This document shows, in pieces, positions 32,716 to 62,075 of a stretch of 64,000 nucleotides of DNA. Origin of the DNA: Ancylobacter novellus DSM 506. GTDB taxonomy: Bacteria > Pseudomonadota > Alphaproteobacteria > Rhizobiales > Xanthobacteraceae. The stretch covers positions 2,728,001 through 2,792,000 of the forward strand of contig NC_014217.1 in NCBI RefSeq assembly GCF_000092925.1. Reading direction: 5' to 3'. Position 1 is the first letter of the stretch. Each line of letters starts with the position of its first letter. The position numbers and the translations under genes are program-made. The notes beneath the pieces are model-generated. The model searched no databases, was not told where the DNA came from, and was given only the letters and a program-made list of their open reading frames with translations.

Positions 32716-32760
32716 CGCGCCCACGGGGAATCGAACCCCGGTTTTCGCCGTGAGAGGGCG
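32716..32760 (-). other. attachment site: 3' half of tRNA-Glu(CUC)
   Basis: On the minus strand this stretch reads as tRNA positions 28-73. It has the anticodon stem-loop CGCC-CTCTCAC-GGCG with anticodon CUC, the T-arm CGGGG-TTCGATT-CCCCG and the acceptor strand TGGGCGC. The 5' half of the tRNA is absent: upstream sequence does not form a D-arm. It lies 138 bases before a tyrosine integrase gene. This is the usual left attachment site left when an island integrates into a tRNA gene; the intact tRNA should lie at the far end of the island, outside the window or lost. Confidence 0.85.
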
Positions 32761-32870
32761 ATATTTGGCACCTAGTGACCTGCGGTGATACCGCACGAGA
32801 ACCCTTGCTAATACTAGATTTCATTACAATTCGTCTCATTGCGTCCAAGCCGCTTCCATGCCATAGTTAG

Positions 32871-49452: not shown

Positions 49453-49460
49453 TTCGAATA
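49453..49460 (+). repeat. target-site duplication, left
   Basis: TTCGAATA, repeated exactly at 52229-52236. An 8-bp duplication is standard for the IS1595 family. Confidence 0.9.
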
Positions 49461-49485
49461 GACGATTATCCCCTTGACGCAAGTA
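49461..49485 (+). repeat. left terminal inverted repeat
   Basis: 25 bp, 24 matching the right end. It contains TTGACG (49474-49479), which with CATATT at 49497-49502 (17-base spacer) forms an inward promoter for the transposase. Confidence 0.9.
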
Positions 49486-49524
49486 TGAGCTTTTGGCATA
49501 TTGGTGACAACAGAGGTTGTTGCC

Positions 49525-50403
49525 ATGTCGTCCGAAAAGCTCACTGTCCGCCAGTTCTTCGCCCGCTTCCCCAATGATGACGCCTGCCTCAACCACATCA
49601 TGGAGGTGCGGTACGGCATGCGCCATGTGTGCGAGCGCTGCGGCAAGGAAGCGACCTTCCATAAGATGAGCGAGCGCCGCGCGTTTGCGTGCGCCGCCTG
49701 TGGCGACCACGTGTATCCCTGCGCAGGCACGATCTTTCAGGACAGCCGCACGTCTCTCCAAACTTGGTTCTATGCGATCTACCTGTTCGTGGTGACCCGC
49801 CACGGCGTTTCCGGCAAGGAGCTTGAGCGCACCCTCGGCGTCACCTACAAGACCGCATGGCGCATGGGGCAGCAAATCCGCCAGCTTATGGAGAAGGCGG
49901 ACGGCTTCGCCATGCTCCAGGGTCACGTTGAAGCCGATGAGGCCTACGTCGGCGGTCACCGCCCCGGCAAGCGTGGTCGCGGCGCCGCTGGCAAGACCAT
50001 CGTTATGGGCATGAAGGAACGCGGCGGGCGACTGACGACCGAGGTTATCCCGGACGTGAAGAAGGCAACCCTGCGTGACGTGGTGAACCGGAACGTTGAG
50101 CCGGGCTCTGTCGTCTCCACCGACGAACTGATGTCCTACGGCTTACTGGAGGGCGACGGCTACGTGCATGGGCAGGTGAAGCACGGCGCCAAGGAGTGGA
50201 GCTACTACGACTACCGCCACGGCGCGACGCACAGCACGAACAGCGTCGAAGCCTTCTGGCGACTGTTTAAGGCTTCCGTCCGCTCGACGCACATTCACGT
50301 CAGCCCCAAGTACATGGATCGATACCTCAGCGAGTTCGCTTTCCGGTCGAACCACCGCGCGATGCGGAACGCGATGTTCGATCTGCTGATTGGGGCTGTC
50401 TGA
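49525..50403 (+). CDS. IS1595-family (ISXO2-like) transposase
   Basis: Transposase of 292 aa. An N-terminal zinc ribbon has Cys36, Cys39, Cys56 and Cys59 (CERC...CAAC). A helix-turn-helix follows (HGVSGKELERTLGVTYKTAWRMGQQIR), then the ISXO2-like DDE domain with Asp138 in VEADEAYVGG, Asp200 in VVSTDEL and Asn239/Glu242 in HSTNSVEAFWRLFK. All catalytic positions are intact, so the element should be active. AGAGG stands 10 bases before the ATG. Confidence 0.95.
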   Translation: MSSEKLTVRQFFARFPNDDACLNHIMEVRYGMRHVCERCGKEATFHKMSERRAFACAACGDHVYPCAGTIFQDSRTSLQTWFYAIYLFVVTRHGVSGKELERTLGVTYKTAWRMGQQIRQLMEKADGFAMLQGHVEADEAYVGGHRPGKRGRGAAGKTIVMGMKERGGRLTTEVIPDVKKATLRDVVNRNVEPGSVVSTDELMSYGLLEGDGYVHGQVKHGAKEWSYYDYRHGATHSTNSVEAFWRLFKASVRSTHIHVSPKYMDRYLSEFAFRSNHRAMRNAMFDLLIGAV

Positions 50404-50524
50404 TCACGGCCTCTAACGCGCGGTCGAGATCGCCCCTTTCGGCGGGGCCTACGCCCCGCGCCTCTTCTTGGGCGACGAACTCATGCAATCGCCCCTCTTT
50501 AAGGGCCTCCGCGAGGGTTATCAT
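50327..50524 (-). CDS. small hypothetical protein overlapping the transposase end
   Basis: A 65-aa charged protein (MITLAEALKEGRLHEFVAQE, then EARGVGPAERGDLDRALEAVI, ending in a basic SRGGSTGKRTR tail). AAGGA lies 8 bases before the ATG. Proteins of this style (short, QEEARGxGP, basic tail) occur in other alphaproteobacteria as hypotheticals. It overlaps the last 77 bases of the transposase gene on the opposite strand, so the two messages would be antisense at their 3' ends. Confidence 0.55.
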   Translation of the reverse strand: MITLAEALKEGRLHEFVAQEEARGVGPAERGDLDRALEAVIRQPQSADRTSRSASRGGSTGKRTR

Positions 50525-50571
50525 GCGACGAGTCCTTGCTTTTTCTCGTCAACAATGGTAGCAAAAAGAAA

Positions 50572-50592
50572 CGGCGGGGCACAGCCCCGCCG
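50572..50592 (-). terminator. intrinsic terminator on the minus strand
   Basis: Perfect hairpin CGGCGGGGC-tgt-GCCCCGCCG followed on the minus strand by TTTCTTTTT. It comes 8 bases after the stop of the 22-codon ORF. Confidence 0.8.
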
Positions 50593-50600
50593 TCCTGACT

Positions 50601-50669
50601 CTATCTCAAGAGCAGGGGAAATAGGATGGGTACCAGCCATCCAAATTTCCCGGGGACGCCACTCCCCAT
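50601..50669 (-). CDS. possible 22-aa hydrophobic peptide
   Basis: Very short frame beginning MGSGVPGKFGW and ending LVPILFPLLLR, i.e. a short polar start and a hydrophobic helix of about 11 residues. TTGGAGG lies 7 bases before the ATG, and an intrinsic terminator follows the stop directly. This layout (strong RBS, tiny membrane peptide, terminator) is that of type I toxins or small membrane peptides, but chance cannot be excluded at this length. Confidence 0.4.
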   Translation of the reverse strand: MGSGVPGKFGWLVPILFPLLLR

Positions 50670-50720
50670 AATCTACCTCCAATCTCGCGCTCCCATGGCG
50701 CGTATGCCGCATGCACGGAG

Positions 50721-50745
50721 GCCCCGGATCATCCGGGGCCTTTGT
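50721..50745 (+). terminator. GC-rich hairpin with short T-run
   Basis: GGCCCCGGA-tca-TCCGGGGCC followed by TTT on the plus strand. The hairpin would also function partly in the other direction. It separates the transposase side of the element from the cargo genes. Confidence 0.7.
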
Positions 50746-50853
50746 GGCGCGTCGCCACCATCTCAAAATCTCACATTCGGTTCCCGGTTGCAAGGCGCCT
50801 TGAGTGGGTGCATTGTGGATTCAATACCGGCGAGGCGGTGAGGAGAACGAAAA

Positions 50854-51288
50854 ATGAACGAATCCCTATCTAAGGCACTGAAAATAAAAGAAAAACTTCT
50901 TGATGAACTGTCCAAGGTAGAGCAATTCATCAGGCTGCATAACGAACTTTTTGGCGAGGGCGATGATGTCGCTGAGCCGAATCATGGTCGGCAGTCTGAG
51001 GATGAAAGCGACTCGCCTAAACGCCGCCGGGGGCGCCCTTCTGAGATCGCAGACGCCGCATGGAAGGTGATCAAGGAGCTAAATCGGCCGGTTCAGCGTG
51101 GCGAATTGGTGGAACGTATCGAGGCCATGGGCATCGACGTTTCGAGCGACGACAAGCCCCGCTACATCGGAACGATCCTCTGGCGCGAGAAAGATCGTTT
51201 CGAGAATATCGAGGGTAGGGGCTATTGGGCCGTGTCCCTTGGCGATCCGCCTTCCCCGGAGGATTCATCGCCTGACATTTTCCGCTGA
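50854..51288 (+). CDS. AT-hook / winged-helix DNA-binding-like protein
   Basis: A 144-aa cargo protein. Residues 1-32 form a coiled coil (SKALKIKEKLLDELSKVEQF), then an acidic linker and an AT-hook-like RRRGRP at 57-62. A compact wHTH/HARE-like domain follows (AWKVIKELNRPVQRGELVERIEAMGIDV...YIGTILWREKDRFENIEGRGYWAV). It probably binds DNA and may regulate the cargo or transposition. GAGGAG precedes the ATG. The AT-richer codon usage of its first part differs from host genes. Confidence 0.7.
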   Translation: MNESLSKALKIKEKLLDELSKVEQFIRLHNELFGEGDDVAEPNHGRQSEDESDSPKRRRGRPSEIADAAWKVIKELNRPVQRGELVERIEAMGIDVSSDDKPRYIGTILWREKDRFENIEGRGYWAVSLGDPPSPEDSSPDIFR

Positions 51289-51375
51289 TGAGTCTGGAAA
51301 TGTATCGGCTGGACGTATCCCGCGAACGTTCCCATATTGTTGTCATCACCCCGGCGGGCAGGACTCGTCGGATAA

Positions 51376-51408
51376 GAGGTCGTCTCGGGCAACCGGGCGG
51401 CCTCTTTA
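51376..51408 (+). terminator. possible weak terminator or attenuator before the NYN gene
   Basis: GAGGTCG...CGGCCTC hairpin (one T-G pair) followed by TTTACATTT, between the winged-helix gene and the NYN gene. It would lower read-through into the nuclease gene. Confidence 0.45.
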
Positions 51409-51424
51409 CATTTGGGGGCCACGC

Positions 51425-52051
51425 ATGAGGGTGGCCTGCTACGTCGACGGCTTCAATCTTTATCACGCGGTTGATGCGCTAGGCGACGCCCGCCTAAAAT
51501 GGCTGAATCTGAGGTCTCTCGCCGAATCCTATCTCGCGCCAGACGACGTTCTTGTCAGAACGGTCTTCTTCACCGCGTTCAACACGTGGGAACACGCCAA
51601 GCGCCAGCGACACGTGAACTACGTGAAGGCTCTAGGGGCGACAGGCGTTGAGGTGGTGCTGTCGCGCTTCGACAAGGTTCACAAGCACTGCTTCACTCAC
51701 GAGCGGTTTTGTAAGCTGCGCGAGGAAAAGCAAACTGATGTGGCCATTGCGATAGAGGTGATGTCCGACTGCTATGAGCGGGGCATAGAGCGCGTCCTCC
51801 TCATAACGGCGGACAGCGATCAGGTGCCCATGGTGCGTCGCATCCGAGACCGTTTCCCCGAAACAATCATCTTCATGATTGCCCCACCTAAGCGCCTCAA
51901 TGCGGCGCGAGAGCTTGGACAGGCATGCAGCGGCGTGGCCGAACTGACGGCGGGGCGACTTCGCCAACACGCATTGCCAGACGAACTTAGAGACGGGCGC
52001 GGTCATCTCATTGCCGCTCGCCCCGCCATTTATGGCCCACACGGAAACTAA
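51425..52051 (+). CDS. NYN-domain (PIN-like) ribonuclease
   Basis: A 208-aa protein that is essentially one NYN/DUF88 (LabA-like) domain. Active-site acids are visible: Asp8 and Asn11 in YVDGFNLYH, Asp105 in EEKQTDVAIAIEV, and Asp130/Asp132 in LLITADSDQV. A Cys pair (KHCFTHERFC) precedes EEKQTD. NYN proteins are metal-dependent RNases related to PIN and several act on tRNA or mRNA. In this transposon the gene ends 33 bases from the permuted tRNA, facing it, with a terminator in between. Processing, attack or neutralisation of tRNA is therefore an obvious hypothesis, but no activity can be read from sequence. Confidence 0.88.
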   Translation: MRVACYVDGFNLYHAVDALGDARLKWLNLRSLAESYLAPDDVLVRTVFFTAFNTWEHAKRQRHVNYVKALGATGVEVVLSRFDKVHKHCFTHERFCKLREEKQTDVAIAIEVMSDCYERGIERVLLITADSDQVPMVRRIRDRFPETIIFMIAPPKRLNAARELGQACSGVAELTAGRLRQHALPDELRDGRGHLIAARPAIYGPHGN

Positions 52052-52080
52052 AGGGCCGCTCACCCGAAGGGAGCGGCCCC
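52052..52080 (-). terminator. terminator of the permuted tRNA gene
   Basis: Minus strand: GGGCCGCTC-CCTTCGGGT-GAGCGGCCC followed by TTTAGTTT. It begins 4 bases after tRNA position 35. The plus strand lacks a T-run, so the hairpin mainly serves the tRNA, though it may also stabilise the NYN message. Confidence 0.75.
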
Positions 52081-52083
52081 GAT

Positions 52084-52160
52084 AAAGCCCCGTATCCTAA
52101 CCGCTAGACGAACGCCCGATTGGTCGGGCGTACCGGGTTCGAACCGGCGTCTCAGGGGTG
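52084..52160 (-). tRNA. circularly permuted tRNA-Glu(UUC) gene
   Basis: On the minus strand the 3' half comes first (52160-52121: CACCCCTGAGAC, T-arm GCCGG-TTCGAAC-CCGGT, acceptor ACGCCCG, A73, CCA). Then the 2-base spacer AT, then the 5' half (52118-52084: acceptor CGGGCGT, TC, D-arm GTCTAGCGGTTAGGAT, A, CGGGG, CTTT). Joined between positions 35 and 36 they give a 75-nt tRNA. The acceptor has 7 of 7 pairs, the anticodon stem is CGGGG/CCCTG with one G-U, the loop is CUUUCAC (anticodon UUC) and the variable loop has 4 nt. The D-arm is of Glu type. In the transcript the leader GAUAGAG (52168-52162) can pair with CUUUAUC (52087-52081), extending the anticodon stem with a 4-nt bulge, as in permuted-tRNA precursors of algae and archaea. 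A -10 box and a terminator frame the unit. Maturation in a bacterium is unexplained. Confidence 0.8.
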
Positions 52161-52173
52161 TCTCTATCTTGGA

Positions 52174-52179
52174 ATTATA
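52174..52179 (-). promoter_or_regulatory. -10 box of the permuted tRNA gene
   Basis: Perfect TATAAT on the minus strand, 13 bases before tRNA position C36, predicting a start near 52167-52170 and a leader of only 7-10 nt. The matching -35 is poor (AAACAT at 17-base spacing). Confidence 0.6.
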
Positions 52180-52203
52180 TTACTACAACTCTTGAAATGT
52201 TTG

Positions 52204-52228
52204 TACTTGCGTCAAGGGGATAATCGCC
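52204..52228 (-). repeat. right terminal inverted repeat
   Basis: 25 bp, identical to the left end except for G instead of A at position 2. The permuted tRNA -10 box begins 25 bases inside this end. Confidence 0.9.
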
Positions 52229-52236
52229 TTCGAATA
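52229..52236 (+). repeat. target-site duplication, right
   Basis: TTCGAATA, exact copy of 49453-49460. Confidence 0.9.
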
Positions 52237-53994: not shown

Positions 53995-54271
53995 GGCGGC
54001 CCTCCTTGGCCCACACGGGGCAACTCGGATAATCGAACCTACCCGCCTTCGGCGAAATGAAGGTGCCATAGCAGCGGTCAGAAGAGGCGAGAGGTAAGCG
54101 TCCCGCACATGGTCCGCGATATCGGTCACCAAGGCCAGAGGGACTGGCATCTCGCGTACACTGAAGCGTCACCGCTTCAAGGTTCGAATGGCGACGATGC
54201 CGGCATCGAGCTGAAAATCGGACAGCCGCGCGCAAGCAACTCGCTCACGCGCGCACCTGTCCAGAACATGA

Positions 54272-54313
54272 GGCGGGCGAATGGGATTCGAACCCACGAG
54301 CCCATCCTTGGAA
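54272..54313 (-). other. second attachment remnant: tRNA 3'-half-like sequence
   Basis: Minus strand: loop TTTCCAA, stem GGATG, variable GGCTC, T-arm GTGGG-TTCGAAT-CCCAT and acceptor strand TCGCCCG. The loop suggests tRNA-Gly(UCC). No matching acceptor 5' strand or D-arm exists upstream, so it is a half tRNA as at 32716-32760. The bases that follow (tcgctatttgccgcc) resemble those after the first site (gcgatatttggcacc). Confidence 0.65.
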
Positions 54314-54552: not shown

Positions 54553-56001
54553 CTATGCCTGTCCCAATTGCTTGGCCACGCCCCGAAAGCGATCAAGCGC
54601 GACCTCAAGGCTCTCTACTACCTCAGCCGCAACCTCGTCCGGCGACGGGAGCAGATCGGGATCATCCAGCGTGTTGTCCTTCAACCAGAAGATATCGAGA
54701 TTGACCTTGTCGCGGGCGAGCAATGCATCAAGCGGGAAGCGCCTGAACCTCTCACTTTCCTCACGCTCGAAAATCCGACCCGGCCGATAGCACTGGACGA
54801 AATCGTCGAGATCGGCTCGCACCATTGGGCGCTCTTTCAGCGTGAAGCGCTGATTGGTTCGCAGATCATAAATCCACAAATCTCTAGTGGCCGCTTCGTC
54901 GGACGGAGGCTTCTTGTCGAAGAAGAGCACATTCGCCTTCACGCCCTGCTTGTAGAAGATCCCGGTGGGCAGACGCAGCAGCGTGTGAAAGTCAAAATTA
55001 CGCAGCAGCCGGCGACGGATCGTTTCGCCTGCGCCCCCCTCGAACAGCACATTGTCAGGCAACACCACAGCGGCTTCGCCATCCGGAGCCAGCACGGTCA
55101 TGATGTGCTGAAGAAAGTTCAACTGCTTGTTCGAGGTAGTGACGAAAAAATCCTGTCGGTCGTAATCCTCGCGCTCGTTGTCGATCTCGCCGTCGTCGCG
55201 GACGATCCGGTAGCTCTGCTTTCTGCCGAAAGGTGGATTGGTAAGGATGATGTCGTAGCTCTTACCGCCCGCTCCGAGCAGAGCATCCTTTGCCTCGACA
55301 ATGGAATCGACGCCTGTAATTCCGTGCAAATAGAGATTCATCGCGGCGAGACGCACCACCTCCGGCACGATGTCGACGCCCGAGAACTTGTTCTTAAGCG
55401 CCAGATAGGTCGCCTTGTCCTGCGCGCGCGGATGCTTTTTCATATGCTCCCACGCAGCGAGCAGGAATCCTGCAGTGCCGCATGCCGGGTCATGAACAGT
55501 CTGCTGGGGTTCAGGATCGACCACCTCGACCATGGCGTCGATCACGGCACGTGGGGTAAAGTACTGTCCGGCGCCGGATTTCACATCCTCAGCGTTGCGA
55601 GCGAGCAGGCCCTCATAAATGTCACCCTTCACATCGACCGGCAGGCCGAGCCAGGTTTCGCTGTCGATCAGGCCCACGAGCCGCTTCAGCTTGGCTGGGT
55701 CTTGGATCTCGTTTTGCGCCTTGAGAAAGATGGCGCCGATGATGCCGCCCTGCTTTGAAAGCGTGCCGAGCAGTTTCACATAGGCGGAATTCAATGCCTC
55801 GCCCGACAAACCCTTGATGTTGTCCCAGCGCGAGCCGTCCGGCAGCATCGAGGCTTCGCCGATAAGAGTGACGCGCTCCTCATCCATCTTGAGGAACAGA
55901 AGATAGGAAATCTGACTGATATAGGCCTGATAAGACACACCCTGATCGCGCAGCACATGCGCGAAGTTCCAGACCTTGGCGACGAGGGATTGGGCGTTCA
56001 T
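54553..56001 (-). CDS. hsdM: type I DNA methyltransferase subunit M, second locus
   Basis: A 482-aa N6-adenine methyltransferase: HsdM_N (MNAQSLVAKVWNFAHVLRDQGVSYQAYISQISYLLFLKM), motif I VHDPACGTAGFLLAAW and motif IV ILTNPPFGRK. It is of the EcoEI/EcoprrI-like type and differs clearly from HsdM at 47000. The Met at 56001 has GAGGAC before it and lies 7 bases after the DUF262 stop. Last gene of the second operon. Confidence 0.94.
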   Translation of the reverse strand: MNAQSLVAKVWNFAHVLRDQGVSYQAYISQISYLLFLKMDEERVTLIGEASMLPDGSRWDNIKGLSGEALNSAYVKLLGTLSKQGGIIGAIFLKAQNEIQDPAKLKRLVGLIDSETWLGLPVDVKGDIYEGLLARNAEDVKSGAGQYFTPRAVIDAMVEVVDPEPQQTVHDPACGTAGFLLAAWEHMKKHPRAQDKATYLALKNKFSGVDIVPEVVRLAAMNLYLHGITGVDSIVEAKDALLGAGGKSYDIILTNPPFGRKQSYRIVRDDGEIDNEREDYDRQDFFVTTSNKQLNFLQHIMTVLAPDGEAAVVLPDNVLFEGGAGETIRRRLLRNFDFHTLLRLPTGIFYKQGVKANVLFFDKKPPSDEAATRDLWIYDLRTNQRFTLKERPMVRADLDDFVQCYRPGRIFEREESERFRRFPLDALLARDKVNLDIFWLKDNTLDDPDLLPSPDEVAAEVVESLEVALDRFRGVAKQLGQA

Positions 56002-56008
56002 GTTGTCC

Positions 56009-57688
56009 TCACGCCAGACGCCAAAGCTTTTCAATAGCGCCAATCAGTTCATTCTGTCGACGCTTGAGCGTGTCGATAGTCCACTCGCTTTCAGCGAGGA
56101 CTTTGCTTGTCAATGCAAAATTCGAAACGCCATTTTTCATCGAAAAATACTTGGATTTCTTATCCTGAAAATCGAGATTTCCGGCCTGAGAGTTTTTGCG
56201 CCGCGTCAGTATTACGAGGTTGGCCAATTTGTGAACCCACAGATCGCGATCACTCTCGGTCGGAAAGTCGGTTAGCCAATGGCTTCCTGCCTTGGGATTC
56301 TGAGGAAGGACGTGCTCCACGGTCATGATTGGCGAGCTGTAGACGGCGCTGCCACCTGAGAGCAGCTCATCAAGCCGAAGCAGAAGCGGCAACCTGATGC
56401 GCGTCACCGTGTAGATGTCCCCGTCCAGGCTCCTTCGGACAGCCTTCTTTTCGGCATCGTCAAGTTGCAGCGGCGATGCATCGCTAAAGAGGTCATCGCC
56501 AGTCTGGATCCAGCCAAGCAGCCGCCCGTAACGGCGGATGCGGTCGGACGGATCACTCCGCATAAGGAACAGGCCATAAGCGAGCCGTTCAAGATCGGAA
56601 AGAAAGCGAAGAATGAAATCGGGATCGCTACGGCGTTTGGCGATCACTTCAATCGCGGGCGGCTGCCAATCAAAATTGTCGAGCCTGGAAAGATGCGTCA
56701 GCTGTCGATTTATCTCGTCAGCATGCTTGTAGCTCTCGAACGCTCTATCCGTGATCTCTTCATAGGCGTCGGCATAGGGCGACAGTTCGTTTTCGATGAA
56801 CTTCGCCGGGTCCTTGCGCGTGGGCACGAACTCGCGGAATTCGGCGATCAGCGTTCCCTGCATTTTCTGTTTACGATGAATCATGCGGATATGGCCGAAG
56901 AGTTCGGCGAAACGTGAGCGACCGAGTTCGTCCTCAATGTCCTCCCACTGCGCGGTGTAGGCATCCTGCTTGCCTACCGGCAGCGCCCCGATGATCTCAG
57001 CCTTCAGAATGTCGGCCGGCGAAAGATCGAGACCGCGTGAATTGAGAACCGAGAAAATCCGGAAGGCGGATTCCTGATCGGAAGCCGCGACGATTACCAG
57101 ATAGCAGCGCTGCGCAATATACATGGTGAGGCGTCGAAGACTCTCTTCAGATGAGTCCTTAAGCCGACCGCGCAGAAATGTCGCGTTCTCGATCATGCGG
57201 GCGCGGGCATCCCGGAACTGACGAACGTCAGGAAGTGCATTCGTCCCTGCTTCTGCCTGAATGTTCGCACGGAAGAACTCCGCGTCGCGATCGCGCGGCG
57301 TGAGACGGAAAACGTCGCAAGTGCCCTTGATAGGATCGCCGGTTTGGCAGATGTAGTTATGAATGGCCGCGCCAATCTTCGGCGCTGACAGGTCTCGGAG
57401 CACGCTGAGCAGAATCGTCAGCGTCGTCAGCCGCTGCTGGCCGTCGACGACATCGGCCTCCGGCTTCTGCGGATCCTTGATGAGAACAATGCTGCCAAGG
57501 AAATACGGACTTGCATTCGCGACGTCACCACCTTCGCCACACGCGGTGATGATGTCATCGAGCAGCTCGCTGGTCTGCTCCGTCGTCCAGGCATAGGGCC
57601 GCTGATAGGACGGAATGCGGAACAGGTACTTGTCGCAGAAAATGTCGAGGATCGGCTTCTCGCTGGCTTCAATCGTGTGGCGGGTCAT
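56009..57688 (-). CDS. GmrSD-like DUF262/DUF1524 nuclease
   Basis: A 559-aa protein with an N-terminal DUF262 ParB-like NTPase/nuclease domain (IPSYQRPYAWTTEQ, VVDGQQRLTTLTILL) and a C-terminal DUF1524 HNH-like domain (TVEHVLPQNPKAGSHW...WVHKLANLVILTRRKNSQAGN). GmrSD enzymes are type IV restriction systems attacking modified phage DNA. Here it is placed between hsdS and hsdM with overlap to hsdS (4 bases), so the type I operon also carries a modification-dependent nuclease. Confidence 0.88.
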   Translation of the reverse strand: MTRHTIEASEKPILDIFCDKYLFRIPSYQRPYAWTTEQTSELLDDIITACGEGGDVANASPYFLGSIVLIKDPQKPEADVVDGQQRLTTLTILLSVLRDLSAPKIGAAIHNYICQTGDPIKGTCDVFRLTPRDRDAEFFRANIQAEAGTNALPDVRQFRDARARMIENATFLRGRLKDSSEESLRRLTMYIAQRCYLVIVAASDQESAFRIFSVLNSRGLDLSPADILKAEIIGALPVGKQDAYTAQWEDIEDELGRSRFAELFGHIRMIHRKQKMQGTLIAEFREFVPTRKDPAKFIENELSPYADAYEEITDRAFESYKHADEINRQLTHLSRLDNFDWQPPAIEVIAKRRSDPDFILRFLSDLERLAYGLFLMRSDPSDRIRRYGRLLGWIQTGDDLFSDASPLQLDDAEKKAVRRSLDGDIYTVTRIRLPLLLRLDELLSGGSAVYSSPIMTVEHVLPQNPKAGSHWLTDFPTESDRDLWVHKLANLVILTRRKNSQAGNLDFQDKKSKYFSMKNGVSNFALTSKVLAESEWTIDTLKRRQNELIGAIEKLWRLA

Positions 57689-59205
57689 GACTTGGCCTTC
57701 TCAGAAACAGTTTTGCGCCGCCCGCGCCTGATGCGCGCGACAGGTGGGTTTGCGGCCCGCAACCGCGCCAGCATAGCGCTCGCTGGCTCATCGGCCGGGT
57801 CTTGCGGCACGAGGTGGCCTTCGAAGGCGGCCTTGAGGATTGACTGTTTCAGCCGCGCGGCGTCGGCGGCTTCCGCGTCCAGCATGGCCAGTGTGTCGGC
57901 GCTGGCGGCGAGCGCTTCGGAGACGCGGCGTAGGATTACGGCTACCTCGGCGGGGGGCGGGATAGGAAACTCCATTTCAACGAACCGCACCTGCGTCAGA
58001 TGTCCGATGTTTGTGGTGATCCGGCTTTCACGCTTGAAGCGCCCCGAATGCATATAATGTCGGAAGACAAGCAGCGCGAAATTCTCGTCAACCAGCTCGC
58101 TGGCTCGAAAACGCAGAAGTGTTTTCTGAAAGCAGCAGCCCTCGATTTCTCCTCGATACATGGCTGGTCTGCCGAGGAGGTCGGGGGCCTGACCTTCGTT
58201 GAGCAAGACGTCACCCGCCTTCAGTGCGAAGGTTTCGAACTCCTCCGGAGTGAAGTTCATCAGTTTCACGTCCGAAAGGTCTAGCCTGTCTTCGAGCACA
58301 TTGGCGACGCGCAGGTAGGGACGCATGTGCGCCCCCGTGTGGTGCTGCGGCGCGCGCTGCCTTCCCAACTGCACATCACCTGCTTCATGAACAGCACACC
58401 ACGCCCAAGTGTCGGGCAATTCTGGCAAATCCGTGCGGGGAGTCCACGCCGTCCGCAGACGTTTGTTCTTTGACATGGAACCGCGCATACGGGCGACGAG
58501 GTCGTGACCGGTTTCGGCGACAGGGTTCCTCTCGCGCCAATCCTTCGTCAATTCGCCGGTTACGGCCGCTTTCAGCACGGCTCGGCGGAAGGTGTCGAGC
58601 CCCCTGCGCGCCTCCTCCAGTGCTGCCTCACCCTCCGCAATCTCGGCAAACAGCCCATCGATGCGGGCGACGATGCGGCGCTGTTCGGCGAGGGGAGCGA
58701 GAGGGACAATAAGTTCTTCAACGAACGACCGCGGCAATTCCTGCTGGTTGGTCGAACCAACATGGCCGTCGACGACGAGGTGTTGCACTCGCGATGTTTC
58801 GACGAAGTGGCCAAGATAGGCGGGGTCAATCGATGAAGGGCGAACAATGGTGACATGGGAGTCGACCGTTAGCTCGGCAATCGAACCGTCGTAAATGAGC
58901 GCACGACCTATAGTTCCTGTGCCGGTCGAGTTCCAAAGGAGATCTCCCGCTCTGATGTAGAGTTCCGGCGGTAGCCGGTCAAAGGCGTCGCGAGACGTTA
59001 GCTTTAAATGGCGCGGTTCAAGCCGGTGCCATCTTATGCATTTCTGATTCACGACAGGGACGCCGCCAGCCTCAACGTAGGTCGGCCCTCGACCGCGACC
59101 GATGAAATTGCTGAGCATCTTGAGCGGAACCCAAGCCCACCCCTCAGGCAACTCCCACGGCTCATCCTGGGCCAGGCCGGCGCTATTCGGCGTCCACGCG
59201 TCCAT
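57685..59205 (-). CDS. hsdS: type I specificity subunit S, second locus
   Basis: A 506-aa HsdS, somewhat longer than usual, with two target-recognition domains. Conserved helices follow each: PLAPLAEQRRIVARIDGLFAEIAEGEAALEEARRGLDTFRRAVLKAAVTGELT and PPPAEVAVILRRVSEALAASADTLAMLDAEAADAARLKQSILKAAFEGHLV. The ATG at 59205 overlaps the hsdR stop (TGATG); a GTG one codon earlier is possible. Confidence 0.93.
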   Translation of the reverse strand: MDAWTPNSAGLAQDEPWELPEGWAWVPLKMLSNFIGRGRGPTYVEAGGVPVVNQKCIRWHRLEPRHLKLTSRDAFDRLPPELYIRAGDLLWNSTGTGTIGRALIYDGSIAELTVDSHVTIVRPSSIDPAYLGHFVETSRVQHLVVDGHVGSTNQQELPRSFVEELIVPLAPLAEQRRIVARIDGLFAEIAEGEAALEEARRGLDTFRRAVLKAAVTGELTKDWRERNPVAETGHDLVARMRGSMSKNKRLRTAWTPRTDLPELPDTWAWCAVHEAGDVQLGRQRAPQHHTGAHMRPYLRVANVLEDRLDLSDVKLMNFTPEEFETFALKAGDVLLNEGQAPDLLGRPAMYRGEIEGCCFQKTLLRFRASELVDENFALLVFRHYMHSGRFKRESRITTNIGHLTQVRFVEMEFPIPPPAEVAVILRRVSEALAASADTLAMLDAEAADAARLKQSILKAAFEGHLVPQDPADEPASAMLARLRAANPPVARIRRGRRKTVSEKAKS

Positions 59206-61943
59206 CACGCAACCAGCGCGTCGGTCAGGTCATCAAGCAGCGCGGGCAGCCGGGTGCCAAACAGTGCACGTGCCTGGATGAGGCCGCCGCGGGCGGAAAA
59301 TTCAGGCGCTTCCATCAGGTCCCCGATGCCGATCTCAATATTGACGGCGAGATGGTCGCGAATCGCCACCAGCCAAGCCTTCTGCGCGTCGGTATAGCTG
59401 CGCCCGGCCTTTTCCTCACGCCCGAGCCACAAATTGAACCGCCCGGCGACGAGCGCGGGCAGCGGCTCCAGCGTGTCGGCCTCACCGATCGCGTAGCGCA
59501 CCAGCATGACGATGTCGGCTAGCGTGCCCGCCGGATTGCCGCGCACCTTGTCCGAAGCGATGCGCCTGTAAGCCCGCCAGATGTCGATGGGCTCAAGGAG
59601 CCAGGGCGGCCGCTTTAGCGCCTGGCGCAAATCGTCCAGCGCCTCATAGGTGAGGCGCCGCTGCGCATAGGGGAGTCGGTACAGGATCTGAAGCGCCGCG
59701 AGTTCGTCGCGCCGCTCCTCCAGGAAGCGCTGGAACTTGTCGACCGTCTCGCCGGCGCGGCTCGCGTCCCAACCGGAGGAGGTCACGGCATCGGTCGAGA
59801 TGGTGTCGATGCGGATATCGGCAGAGGCTTTCACATCCTTCAGCAGCCGTCGCAGCACGGGATCATCGAACGCAATGGCGGCGGCGTCCTTCGCCGCTTC
59901 GCGCGCCCTGCGCTGCTCGGCCTCGGGGGCGTCCTTCGGCACACGCTCGGCGAGCGCATCCGGGTCCACCGCATCAAGCAGCCGTGCGGCAAGCCCCGCG
60001 AGATCGATTCCGCCCGACGCCTTCACGATCGCCGCACGGTCCTTGTCGCCGATGCGCCTGTCCAGCGCCGCCAGCCGCGCGGCCAGCGTCGTGAAGGCAT
60101 CATCATCGCGACGCCCGGCAGCAACGTCGTCAATCAACCGGTCGAAGGAGATGACGCGGTCGCGCTCCAGCGGCTGCGAGACGGTCTTCAGGCTTTCCGA
60201 TACGCCGACCGCGTCGATCAGCACGAAGCGGGTCTTCGCCTCGGCGTCGGGCGTCACCTCGCGCAGCTTTTCGGGGGAGATGGTCCGCGCACCGCGCCCC
60301 TTCATCTGTTCGAAATAGAGTTCCGACCTTACGTCGCGGAAGAAGATCAGCACCTCGATCGGCTTCACGTCCGTGCCGGTCGCGATCATGTCCACTGTGA
60401 CCGCGATGCGGGGGTTATAATCGTTGCGGAAGGAGCGGATCAGCGACTCGGGGTCTGCGCCATCGGTGCGGTAGGTGATCTTCTTGGCGAAGTCATTTCC
60501 CTTGCCAAACACCTCGCGAACGAGGGTTACGATCTCCTCGGCGTGGTGATCGTCCTTGGCAAAGATCAGGGTTTTCGGCACTTCGCGGCGGGACGGAAAA
60601 AGCTCGGTGAAGAGCGTGTCACGGTAGGTTTCCAGCACGGTGCGGATCTGGTTCGGCACCAGCACGGAGCGATCAATCTGCTCGGGCGTGTAGCTGAAAT
60701 CCTCCGACAGCGTCTCGTAGCGCTGCGCGCGCGTGCGCTTGTCGCGCACCGGGAGATCGTAGCCGGCCTTCACTGTGGCGCCGCGCTCCCCTATCTCCGT
60801 CCGGATACGGAAAATCTCGAAGCCAACATTCACGCCATCGACGACCGAGCGCTCATAGGGATATTGCGCCACGAGATTCCGGCCGAAGAAGCCGAGCGTG
60901 TGCAGGGAGGGTGTGGCGGTAAGGCCGACGGTGAAAGCGTCGAAATATTCCAGCACCTGGCGCCACGTCCCATAGATCGAGCGGTGGCACTCATCCGTGA
61001 TCACAAGATCGAAGCTCTCGATTGGAAGCGCCGGATTATAGCTCACCAGCCGTTCGGCATCTGCGCCCCCGACCTCGAAGCTCGACACCTCTTCCTCATC
61101 CTCGGCCATTTCGCGTCCGGCCAGCACCGAGTAGACACGCTGGATGGTGGCGACGACCACTTGTGCATCCTTGTCGAGGCCGGCGGCGCCAAGCTTCTGG
61201 ACATTGTAGAGTTCCGAGAAGGACCGACCCGTTCCTGGTGGGCGGTAGGCGAGAAACTCGTCCCGCGTCTGGCGCACGAGGTTGGCGCGATCCGCCAGGA
61301 ACAGGATACGTTTGAACCCGGCATGGGCGAGCAGACGACAACTCAGTGTGCAAGCGGTGAATGTCTTGCCCGCACCGGTTGCCATTTGCACCAGCGCCCG
61401 AAGACGGTTTTCTGCCAAGCTCCGTTCTAGCGCCATTACGGCGTCGATCTGACACGCACGCAAACCGTCCGTCACCACTTCCGGCAAGATCTGGAGCCGG
61501 GCGCGCGATGTGAGGGACTGCTTCAGCCACAGGTCCAGGGTTTCCGGGCGATGAAACCAGAAGACGCGGCGCGACACGGGCGCAGGATCGCTGTGATCGC
61601 GAAACAGCGTTTCCGTTCCGGACGCAACATATTCGAAGCGAACTTGCCCCTCCTCGCGGATGAGGTGCTTGGGCGCATCCGCGATGTATCGGGCTGCTTG
61701 CTCGGCAAATCCGGACAGCGTGGTTCCCTGGGCCTTGGCTTCGACAACGCCACAGAGCCGGCGATCAACAAAGAGCCCATAATCAACGGGGCCGGAGGCG
61801 GTCTGGAATTCGCGCACCGCGATGCCTAGGCCCGCGCCCAGATTCATCTCCGCTTTTGACTGAACAAGCCACCCAGCCGCAAGAAGCCGCCGATCGATCA
61901 ACGATCGGGCCTGATCTTCTGGATGAAATGCTGATTCGAGCAT
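59205..61943 (-). CDS. hsdR: type I restriction subunit R, second locus (EcoEI-like)
   Basis: A 912-aa restriction/translocase subunit. The nuclease motif is VDYGLFVDRRLCGVVEAKAQG with Asp54, Glu68 and Lys70; the helicase has Walker A ATGAGKT (188-194), DECH at 317-320, VGLTATPS and VDMIATGTDVKP. The C-terminal EcoEI_R_C part is present. The start is uncertain: the Met at 61943 fits the family, but the frame stays open to 62051 and no clear RBS is seen. The octamer CACATTGC occurs twice just upstream (61940-61980). Confidence 0.92.
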   Translation of the reverse strand: MLESAFHPEDQARSLIDRRLLAAGWLVQSKAEMNLGAGLGIAVREFQTASGPVDYGLFVDRRLCGVVEAKAQGTTLSGFAEQAARYIADAPKHLIREEGQVRFEYVASGTETLFRDHSDPAPVSRRVFWFHRPETLDLWLKQSLTSRARLQILPEVVTDGLRACQIDAVMALERSLAENRLRALVQMATGAGKTFTACTLSCRLLAHAGFKRILFLADRANLVRQTRDEFLAYRPPGTGRSFSELYNVQKLGAAGLDKDAQVVVATIQRVYSVLAGREMAEDEEEVSSFEVGGADAERLVSYNPALPIESFDLVITDECHRSIYGTWRQVLEYFDAFTVGLTATPSLHTLGFFGRNLVAQYPYERSVVDGVNVGFEIFRIRTEIGERGATVKAGYDLPVRDKRTRAQRYETLSEDFSYTPEQIDRSVLVPNQIRTVLETYRDTLFTELFPSRREVPKTLIFAKDDHHAEEIVTLVREVFGKGNDFAKKITYRTDGADPESLIRSFRNDYNPRIAVTVDMIATGTDVKPIEVLIFFRDVRSELYFEQMKGRGARTISPEKLREVTPDAEAKTRFVLIDAVGVSESLKTVSQPLERDRVISFDRLIDDVAAGRRDDDAFTTLAARLAALDRRIGDKDRAAIVKASGGIDLAGLAARLLDAVDPDALAERVPKDAPEAEQRRAREAAKDAAAIAFDDPVLRRLLKDVKASADIRIDTISTDAVTSSGWDASRAGETVDKFQRFLEERRDELAALQILYRLPYAQRRLTYEALDDLRQALKRPPWLLEPIDIWRAYRRIASDKVRGNPAGTLADIVMLVRYAIGEADTLEPLPALVAGRFNLWLGREEKAGRSYTDAQKAWLVAIRDHLAVNIEIGIGDLMEAPEFSARGGLIQARALFGTRLPALLDDLTDALVA

Positions 61944-62075
61944 GACGCAATGTGACGTGAAACTCGAAGCAATGTGAGCGGTATCGACCTCGCTGGCAAT
62001 GTCGCCGCGAGTTTCATTCGATACTCCGCTAGGACGTTGTGGAGGCGCCAATCACGCTGCAAGTGAGACAGATGC

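Follow-up and report, generated by a model that had tools for sequence, protein, structure and literature searches.

What can a glutamate tRNA gene do in a bacterial transposon when its halves stand in reversed order? The gene in question is short and lies in the window, the whole 64,000-nucleotide stretch of Ancylobacter novellus DSM 506 DNA that we analysed. On the minus strand, a CCA-ending 3' half of tRNA-Glu(UUC) (52160-52121) is followed by a 2-nt spacer, AU (52120-52119), and then by the matching 5' half (52118-52084). The 3' half covers positions 36-76 (C36 A C, the anticodon stem, the 4-nt variable loop AGAC, the T arm, the acceptor 3' strand and A73 CCA), and the 5' half covers positions 1-35 (the acceptor 5' strand, the D arm, the anticodon stem and CUUU). 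ARAGORN detects no tRNA in the 64-kb window as it stands, and it calls the rejoined sequence tRNA-Glu(ttc). When joined at 35/36, the halves give 75 nt with all 21 base pairs and the tRNA-invariant positions intact: the acceptor stem pairs 7/7, the T stem 5/5 (one G-U), the D stem 4/4 (two G-U) and the anticodon stem 5/5 (one G-U). The anticodon loop becomes CUUUCAC, split exactly as CUUU|CAC. The core is of the Glu type (U11-A24, U13-G22, A46 and no 47), features expected to have a role in Glu identity. An earlier note on this DNA had read the locus as a permuted tRNA-Glu(UUC) gene in a bacterial transposon, with these acceptor pairs, join, length and loop; all of this is borne out by the halves read directly, the ARAGORN call on the join and the intact element described below. 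No outer tRNA halves flank the RNA, and it is this absence that proves the permutation, since a covariance score proves only that tRNA parts occur in this order.

The gene is cargo of an IS1595-family transposon of 2768 bp (49461..52228). Its terminal inverted repeats (49461..49485, plus strand; 52204..52228, minus strand) are identical at 24/25 positions, and the 8-bp target-site duplication TTCGAATA is present on both flanks (49453..49460 and 52229..52236). Because the element is intact and bounded by a target duplication, it must have moved as a unit with the RNA gene. The plus strand encodes an IS1595 family transposase (49501..50403; Pfam PF12762, E 1.8e-41; NCBIfam NF033547), a 144-aa cargo ORF that matches no family (50854..51288), and a cargo NYN-domain protein (51425..52051; Pfam NYN, E 3.2e-13) that resembles PADLOC HEC-09 (E 1.8e-44) and is convergent with the RNA gene. 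HEC-09 is a label for a candidate defence system; no solved structure matched the NYN protein. Relatives of this protein are found on small Klebsiella and E. coli plasmids (L059-L062, L064), mostly with a helix-turn-helix gene, and also in Salmonella.

A single full copy of the transposon is present in the genome. An element on a Geminicoccaceae plasmid resembles it at the ends (22/24 and 19/24) and in the transposase, but its cargo is different and no permuted RNA is present in it. No permuted RNA was found at 23 other loci of NYN relatives, a small sample that yielded no close relatives, and no full copy of the RNA was found in 200 relatives of the host, where four candidates per genome were scored. 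Thus, the homologs in related cargo in which the earlier note had hoped to find compensatory changes did not turn up. In 5 of the 200 relatives there are short matches, which correspond to the hairpin, to part of a T arm or to an ordinary tRNA-Glu, and a similarity search of plasmids and phages gave no useful match. No Rfam family matched at gathering scores, with sub-threshold matches attributable to chance; therefore, membership of a known Rfam family was rejected. This includes tmRNA (beta_tmRNA scores 7.5 bits, the cut-off being 84). Ordinary tRNA-Glu(TTC) and tRNA-Glu(CTC) genes are present in the host, and descent from these was rejected because the acceptor stems and the discriminator differ. 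The nearest tRNA to the joined RNA among 2633 ARAGORN calls from all loci is a tRNA-Glu(ttc) on a phage contig, at 82% identity.

The signals around the halves fit a small transcript. A TATAAT sequence (52174..52179, minus strand), the predicted -10 box, stands 13 bases before the 3' half, and a GC hairpin with a T-rich tail (52050..52080, minus strand), the predicted terminator, begins at 52080 and is followed by TTTAGTTT. These two elements had been taken as evidence of a complete transcription unit, and both are there; however, a consensus promoter scan found no -35 box or promoter pair, and the hairpin at 52050-52080 was not flagged by the consensus terminator scan. The terminator-like hairpin (52050-52079) is also found in G006, G017 and G022, three congeneric genomes, two of which have two copies each. 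The leader GAUAGAG (52162..52168), at the predicted 5' end of the RNA, can pair with the trailer CUUUAUC (52081..52087), which overlaps positions 32-35 of the 5' half. This closing helix of 7 bp with a 4-nt bulge had been noticed earlier and is present; when the same letters are shuffled, at least 7 bp with at most 4 bulged bases arises in 0.58% of cases. The -10 box predicts a start at the first bases of the closing helix, with which the transcript would open, and the terminator abuts the end of the helix.

The predicted transcript of about 119 nt, from TATAAT to terminator, folds as a permuted cloverleaf, with a z score of -2.56 and 3 of 200 shuffles as good. In the predicted fold, which includes the terminator hairpin, the T arm is followed by an acceptor hairpin closed over CCAA, the D arm, and an anticodon stem lengthened by the leader/trailer pairing. 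In an RNA shortened to end at CUUU, and thus missing AUC and the terminator, the permuted cloverleaf is no longer the fold of lowest energy (z -0.69). The fold has one bulge only at the join and no bulge-helix-bulge. An unspliced decoy with closed acceptor ends and an open anticodon had been suggested for this RNA. An unspliced decoy is what we also favour, but the anticodon would not be open, because positions 32-35 pair with the leader in the predicted fold.

Is such a topology foreign to bacteria, as the earlier note had assumed from the known eukaryotic and archaeal cases? A covariance model built from 17 permuted RNAs (R1) was searched against 248 family, 385 class, 397 order and 398 phylum genomes, which are overlapping sets drawn from larger groups and searched with different E-value cut-offs. 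Most of the matches are tandem ordinary tRNAs. However, permuted RNAs are present at 11 of the first 58 loci examined, including the window (L360 is weak), and at 21 of the next 51 loci, plus L465. The last, a Y RNA whose long spacer caused the scan to miss it, shows that at least one such RNA is among the 30 loci set aside as tandem tRNAs. After two RNAs with poor acceptor pairing were dropped, 41 RNAs outside the window were kept, in 30 other genomes. They include members of the same bacterial order as the host of the window, and phages also carry such RNAs; the assumption is not supported.

The 41 chromosomal RNAs share a conserved basal stem. Both halves of a loose Ro-stem motif, which was defined after the RNA family had been seen, occur in 36 of the 41, and the other five look alike by eye. 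Among the 30 genomes, TROVE was found in 15, and a profile built from nine Ro60 proteins of the same class as the window genome found Ro60 in 12 of 13 further RNA-positive genomes (none in G757). In two genomes (G936 and G361), a Ro60-domain protein adjoins the RNA, and in G307 the sole TROVE match is below threshold and lies on a different contig. Altogether, at least 28 of the 30 genomes possess a Ro60 gene. In the comparison genomes, TROVE was found in 1 of 21 (G233, which itself has a weak R1 match) and the Ro60 profile in 0 of 5. Judged by the conserved basal stem and the Ro60 genes, the topology belongs to Y RNAs in most of the bacterial chromosomes that have it, and genomes that combine the stem with Ro60 include members of the window host's own order. 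The window RNA is the exception: neither TROVE nor the nine-protein profile finds Ro60 in its genome, and the loose motif pair finds no Ro stem in its flanks.

A covariance-model search had been proposed as a check on the window RNA. A second model (R2), made from 30 permuted RNAs with the window RNA and the L140 RNA (see below) left out, gives the window RNA 54.4 bits (E 4.8e-12), and the next matches in the window score 21.3 and 19.9 bits. The L140 RNA scores 54.1 bits. However, the loci of the host's own tRNAs reach up to 46.2 bits at a Tyr-Gly pair, and tandem pairs of ordinary tRNAs elsewhere reach 50-64 bits; therefore, the R2 score cannot separate permuted RNAs from tandem tRNAs.

The window RNA can be compared with three known systems. 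It has the permuted tRNA-like domain of bacterial Y RNAs of the YrlA type, in which the T arm, a loop-closed acceptor stem and the D arm follow in this order (PMC8394870), and in both RNAs the open side is extended by pairing of the RNA's own ends. Unlike YrlA, it has no Ro-binding basal stem, no Ro60 was found in its genome, the nucleotides of the Glu anticodon loop are intact, it is borne by a transposon, and it ends directly in a terminator. As in the circularly permuted tRNA genes of algae and archaea (PMC3978253; see also PMC3218864), the 3' half comes first, the spacer is short, and the leader and trailer pair at the join; CCA is encoded, as in archaea. The window RNA has the 3' half before the 5' half and a full rejoined tRNA. 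It differs from these genes in lacking a bulge-helix-bulge, in its bacterial host and in having no known ligation route. Two-piece tmRNA is likewise bacterial, with the 3' part encoded first and CCA beside the 5' acceptor strand, but the window RNA has no tag ORF, keeps its anticodon stem and loop pieces, and matches no tmRNA model. In the open-licence literature, our searches found no description of a bacterial or phage tRNA gene with permuted halves.

Permuted RNAs were also sought in phages. A tRNA-Glu-type pattern matched at least 120 viral and at least 117 genome stretches. Among 243 matches in the loci examined at this stage, four viral ones are permuted (L140, L101, L098 and L084), and the genome matches with seven acceptor pairs look like tandem tRNA-Glu copies; the pattern scans of viral and genome contigs gave mostly tandem tRNAs among the matches listed. 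A stricter pattern gave 12 viral loci; in eight of these the acceptor strands pair 7/7 and outer halves are absent (L084 and L313, which are alike, L098, L101, L306, L308, L309 and L314). Large phages carry permuted RNAs of several isotypes, often with leader/trailer helices of 8-11 bp. Permuted group I introns were rejected as an explanation because such introns would need a much longer leader and trailer, and no match to an intron family was found. Large-phage tRNA clusters with several permuted RNAs, some without a recognisable Ro motif, were seen in L306, L309, L314, L098, L101, L110, L130, L148, L308, L315 and L316; in Phosso (L315) and A3Wally (L316), the permuted RNAs are covered by no annotated RNA feature. 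Several phage RNAs appear by eye to be split at 29/30 of a complete anticodon arm, an impression to which we give no weight.

The sequence GGGCCGA...ACUUGCCC, which we take to be the Ro60-binding stem of Y RNAs, occurs in L101, L306 and L309. Short Ro-stem RNAs of this type without a tRNA domain lie near the permuted ones at L101 209 and L306 1715 (minus strand) and resemble second Y RNAs. The Microbacterium phage A3Wally has a Ro60 gene (TROVE, E 7e-45) about 2.6 kb from its permuted RNA copies. A Listeria phage has been suggested to encode Y RNAs and an Rsr protein (PMC12282133). Among 29 permuted candidates, drawn from phage contigs plus a few additional loci, only 7 have both loose Ro motifs, L307 doubtfully. 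Only some of the phage permuted RNAs thus have a recognisable Ro motif, and many of them may not be Y RNAs.

L140, on a 7.7-kb viral contig, is the sole similarly compact RNA among the matches listed and lies upstream of HNH, terminase and portal genes. Like the window RNA, it is tRNA-Glu-like, split in the anticodon loop and followed directly by a terminator, and it has no Ro motif. It has a 1-nt spacer after CCA and the loop pieces CUU and CAA. Its acceptor stem is different from that of the window RNA, and comparison of the two rejoined sequences gives 64% identity, for an L140 join that is in part a guess. In its rejoined form, the L140 RNA shares 88% identity with a Coriobacteriaceae tRNA-Glu(ctc). 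The Glu isotype shared with the window RNA is partly an effect of the search, as the patterns favoured Glu. A scan for the T arm common to both RNAs returned L140 and three loci that read as tandem tRNAs, and a similarity search of plasmids and phages with the L140 RNA gave no useful match.

Our best explanation, which we hold tentatively and at somewhat less than an even chance, is that the window RNA may be a free-standing mimic of tRNA-Glu, an unspliced and closed permuted cloverleaf that would serve as a decoy for tRNA-Glu-binding proteins. The gene would be transcribed from the TATAAT box to the terminator, and the uncut RNA would adopt the YrlA-type order but lack a basal stem for Ro60 binding. 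Its acceptor end would be hidden in a tetraloop and its positions 32-35 would pair with the leader, so that the RNA would be neither charged nor used for decoding, and tRNA enzymes or nucleases could bind it by the T loop, the D arm and the Glu-type core. The convergent HEC-09/NYN protein of the same transposon is a candidate partner, for which the RNA would act as guard or antidote; alternatively, the partner could be a nuclease of a rival element. A decoy is the simplest reading of an RNA without Ro that has a closed acceptor end. The tRNA-like domain of YrlA, which has D, T and acceptor arms beside the basal stem and is modified by DusA and TruB (PMC8394870), has been proposed as a competitive inhibitor of an anticodon nuclease (PMC7790460).

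The rejoined tRNA-Glu that ARAGORN finds complete, its four intact stems, the fold statistics and the R2 score support the decoy, as do the intact transposon, the fit of the -10 box and terminator to the ends of the closing helix, the same topology in the 41 chromosomal RNAs and the second compact RNA in L140. On the other hand, the lack of a close homolog and of a -35 box counts against it, as do the sharing of the covariance score with tandem tRNAs and the loss of the permuted cloverleaf as the minimum without the full trailer. The exact CUUU|CAC loop would be superfluous for a decoy and may reflect a recent origin or a tRNA function. The proposed partner is the weakest step; no co-occurrence was seen at the 23 NYN loci and no NYN gene is among the five ORFs tested in the L140 contig.

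A serious rival, to which we give a somewhat smaller chance than to the decoy, is that the RNA is an inert relic. Its source could be a pair of neighbouring tRNA-Glu copies, or host DNA enclosed by two elements that had inserted into the anticodon loops of tandem tRNA-Glu genes; either would have given a piece made of a 3' half and a 5' half, which the transposon then picked up. The exactness of the halves would be explained equally well in this way. tRNA-Glu genes in tandem, separated by 2-3 nt, do exist (L257, L273 and L211), both halves end in the anticodon loop, which is the cutting site of many integrases, the island around the window is bounded by a piece of tRNA-Glu(CTC), and no close relative was found. 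However, the pairs and invariant positions are all intact even though the nearest tRNA-Glu is only 82% identical, the TATAAT box and hairpin match the closing helix ends to the base, and a helix of this kind is rare in shuffles (0.6%). The intact pairs in a diverged sequence and the promoter and terminator fit speak mildly against a relic. The absence of Ro60 and of the Ro stem bears on whether the RNA is a YrlA-type Y RNA proper, bound by Ro60 from this genome or from another element; the core it shares with the 41 basal-stem RNAs would suit this, but with no Ro60 found by TROVE or the profile and no loose motif in the flanks (from a motif list made after the family was seen), we regard it as very improbable.

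The remaining two readings concern processing. RNase P and 3' trimming might open the CCAA loop and so nick the tRNA-Glu-like RNA, whose two pieces would stay together through the extended anticodon stem, much like a two-piece tmRNA. The features expected of RNase P substrates, namely CCA, a short spacer, an intact acceptor stem and an intact T arm, are all present here. Two-piece tmRNAs are encoded by permuted genes (PMC3978253), but the 4-nt loop leaves little room, and the missing tag ORF and the tmRNA model score also make this improbable. Finally, a bacterial route might cut off the leader and trailer, join 35 to 36 and free a working tRNA-Glu(UUC). The join gives a perfect Glu anticodon loop, CCA is encoded, the core is of the Glu type, and the leader and trailer pair at the join. 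However, the fold has a single bulge instead of a bulge-helix-bulge, the host already has tRNA-Glu(TTC) and (CTC), and bacteria are not known to have a splicing endonuclease; we give this true permuted tRNA gene a very small chance.

If the decoy RNA is functional, it shows that the tRNA-like part of a bacterial Y RNA can exist by itself on a mobile element, independently of Ro60, and imitate a specific tRNA. The permuted tRNAs of algae and archaea and the bacterial Y RNAs would then have reached the same topology in different ways. More speculatively, and with still less confidence than in the decoy itself, mobile elements such as this transposon and the L140 phage might carry a class of free-standing permuted tRNA mimics, Y-RNA-like modules that lost the Ro60 stem and kept tRNA-Glu identity. 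They could act as tRNA-Glu decoys or guards in conflicts that involve phages, transposons and defences that cut tRNAs; they might even be matured by a novel bacterial pathway. The RNA of about 119 nt offers a small, testable system for what a closed-acceptor tRNA mimic binds.

The surroundings of the transposon were also inspected. At 32716-32761 (minus strand), 46 nt are identical to positions 27-72 of the host tRNA-Glu(CTC) gene, which lies about 57 kb away on the same strand. This piece is likely the attachment-site end of a genomic island that holds type I restriction systems and the transposon. At 54226-54305 (minus strand), a further tRNA is represented by its T arm and acceptor 3' strand, with the 5' part missing; this remnant scores 19.9 bits to R2 and is perhaps a second attachment-site scar. 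The stretch 54553-62051, adjoining the transposon, is a defence island, in which type I restriction genes (methylase, specificity and restriction subunit) surround a GmrSD-like gene.
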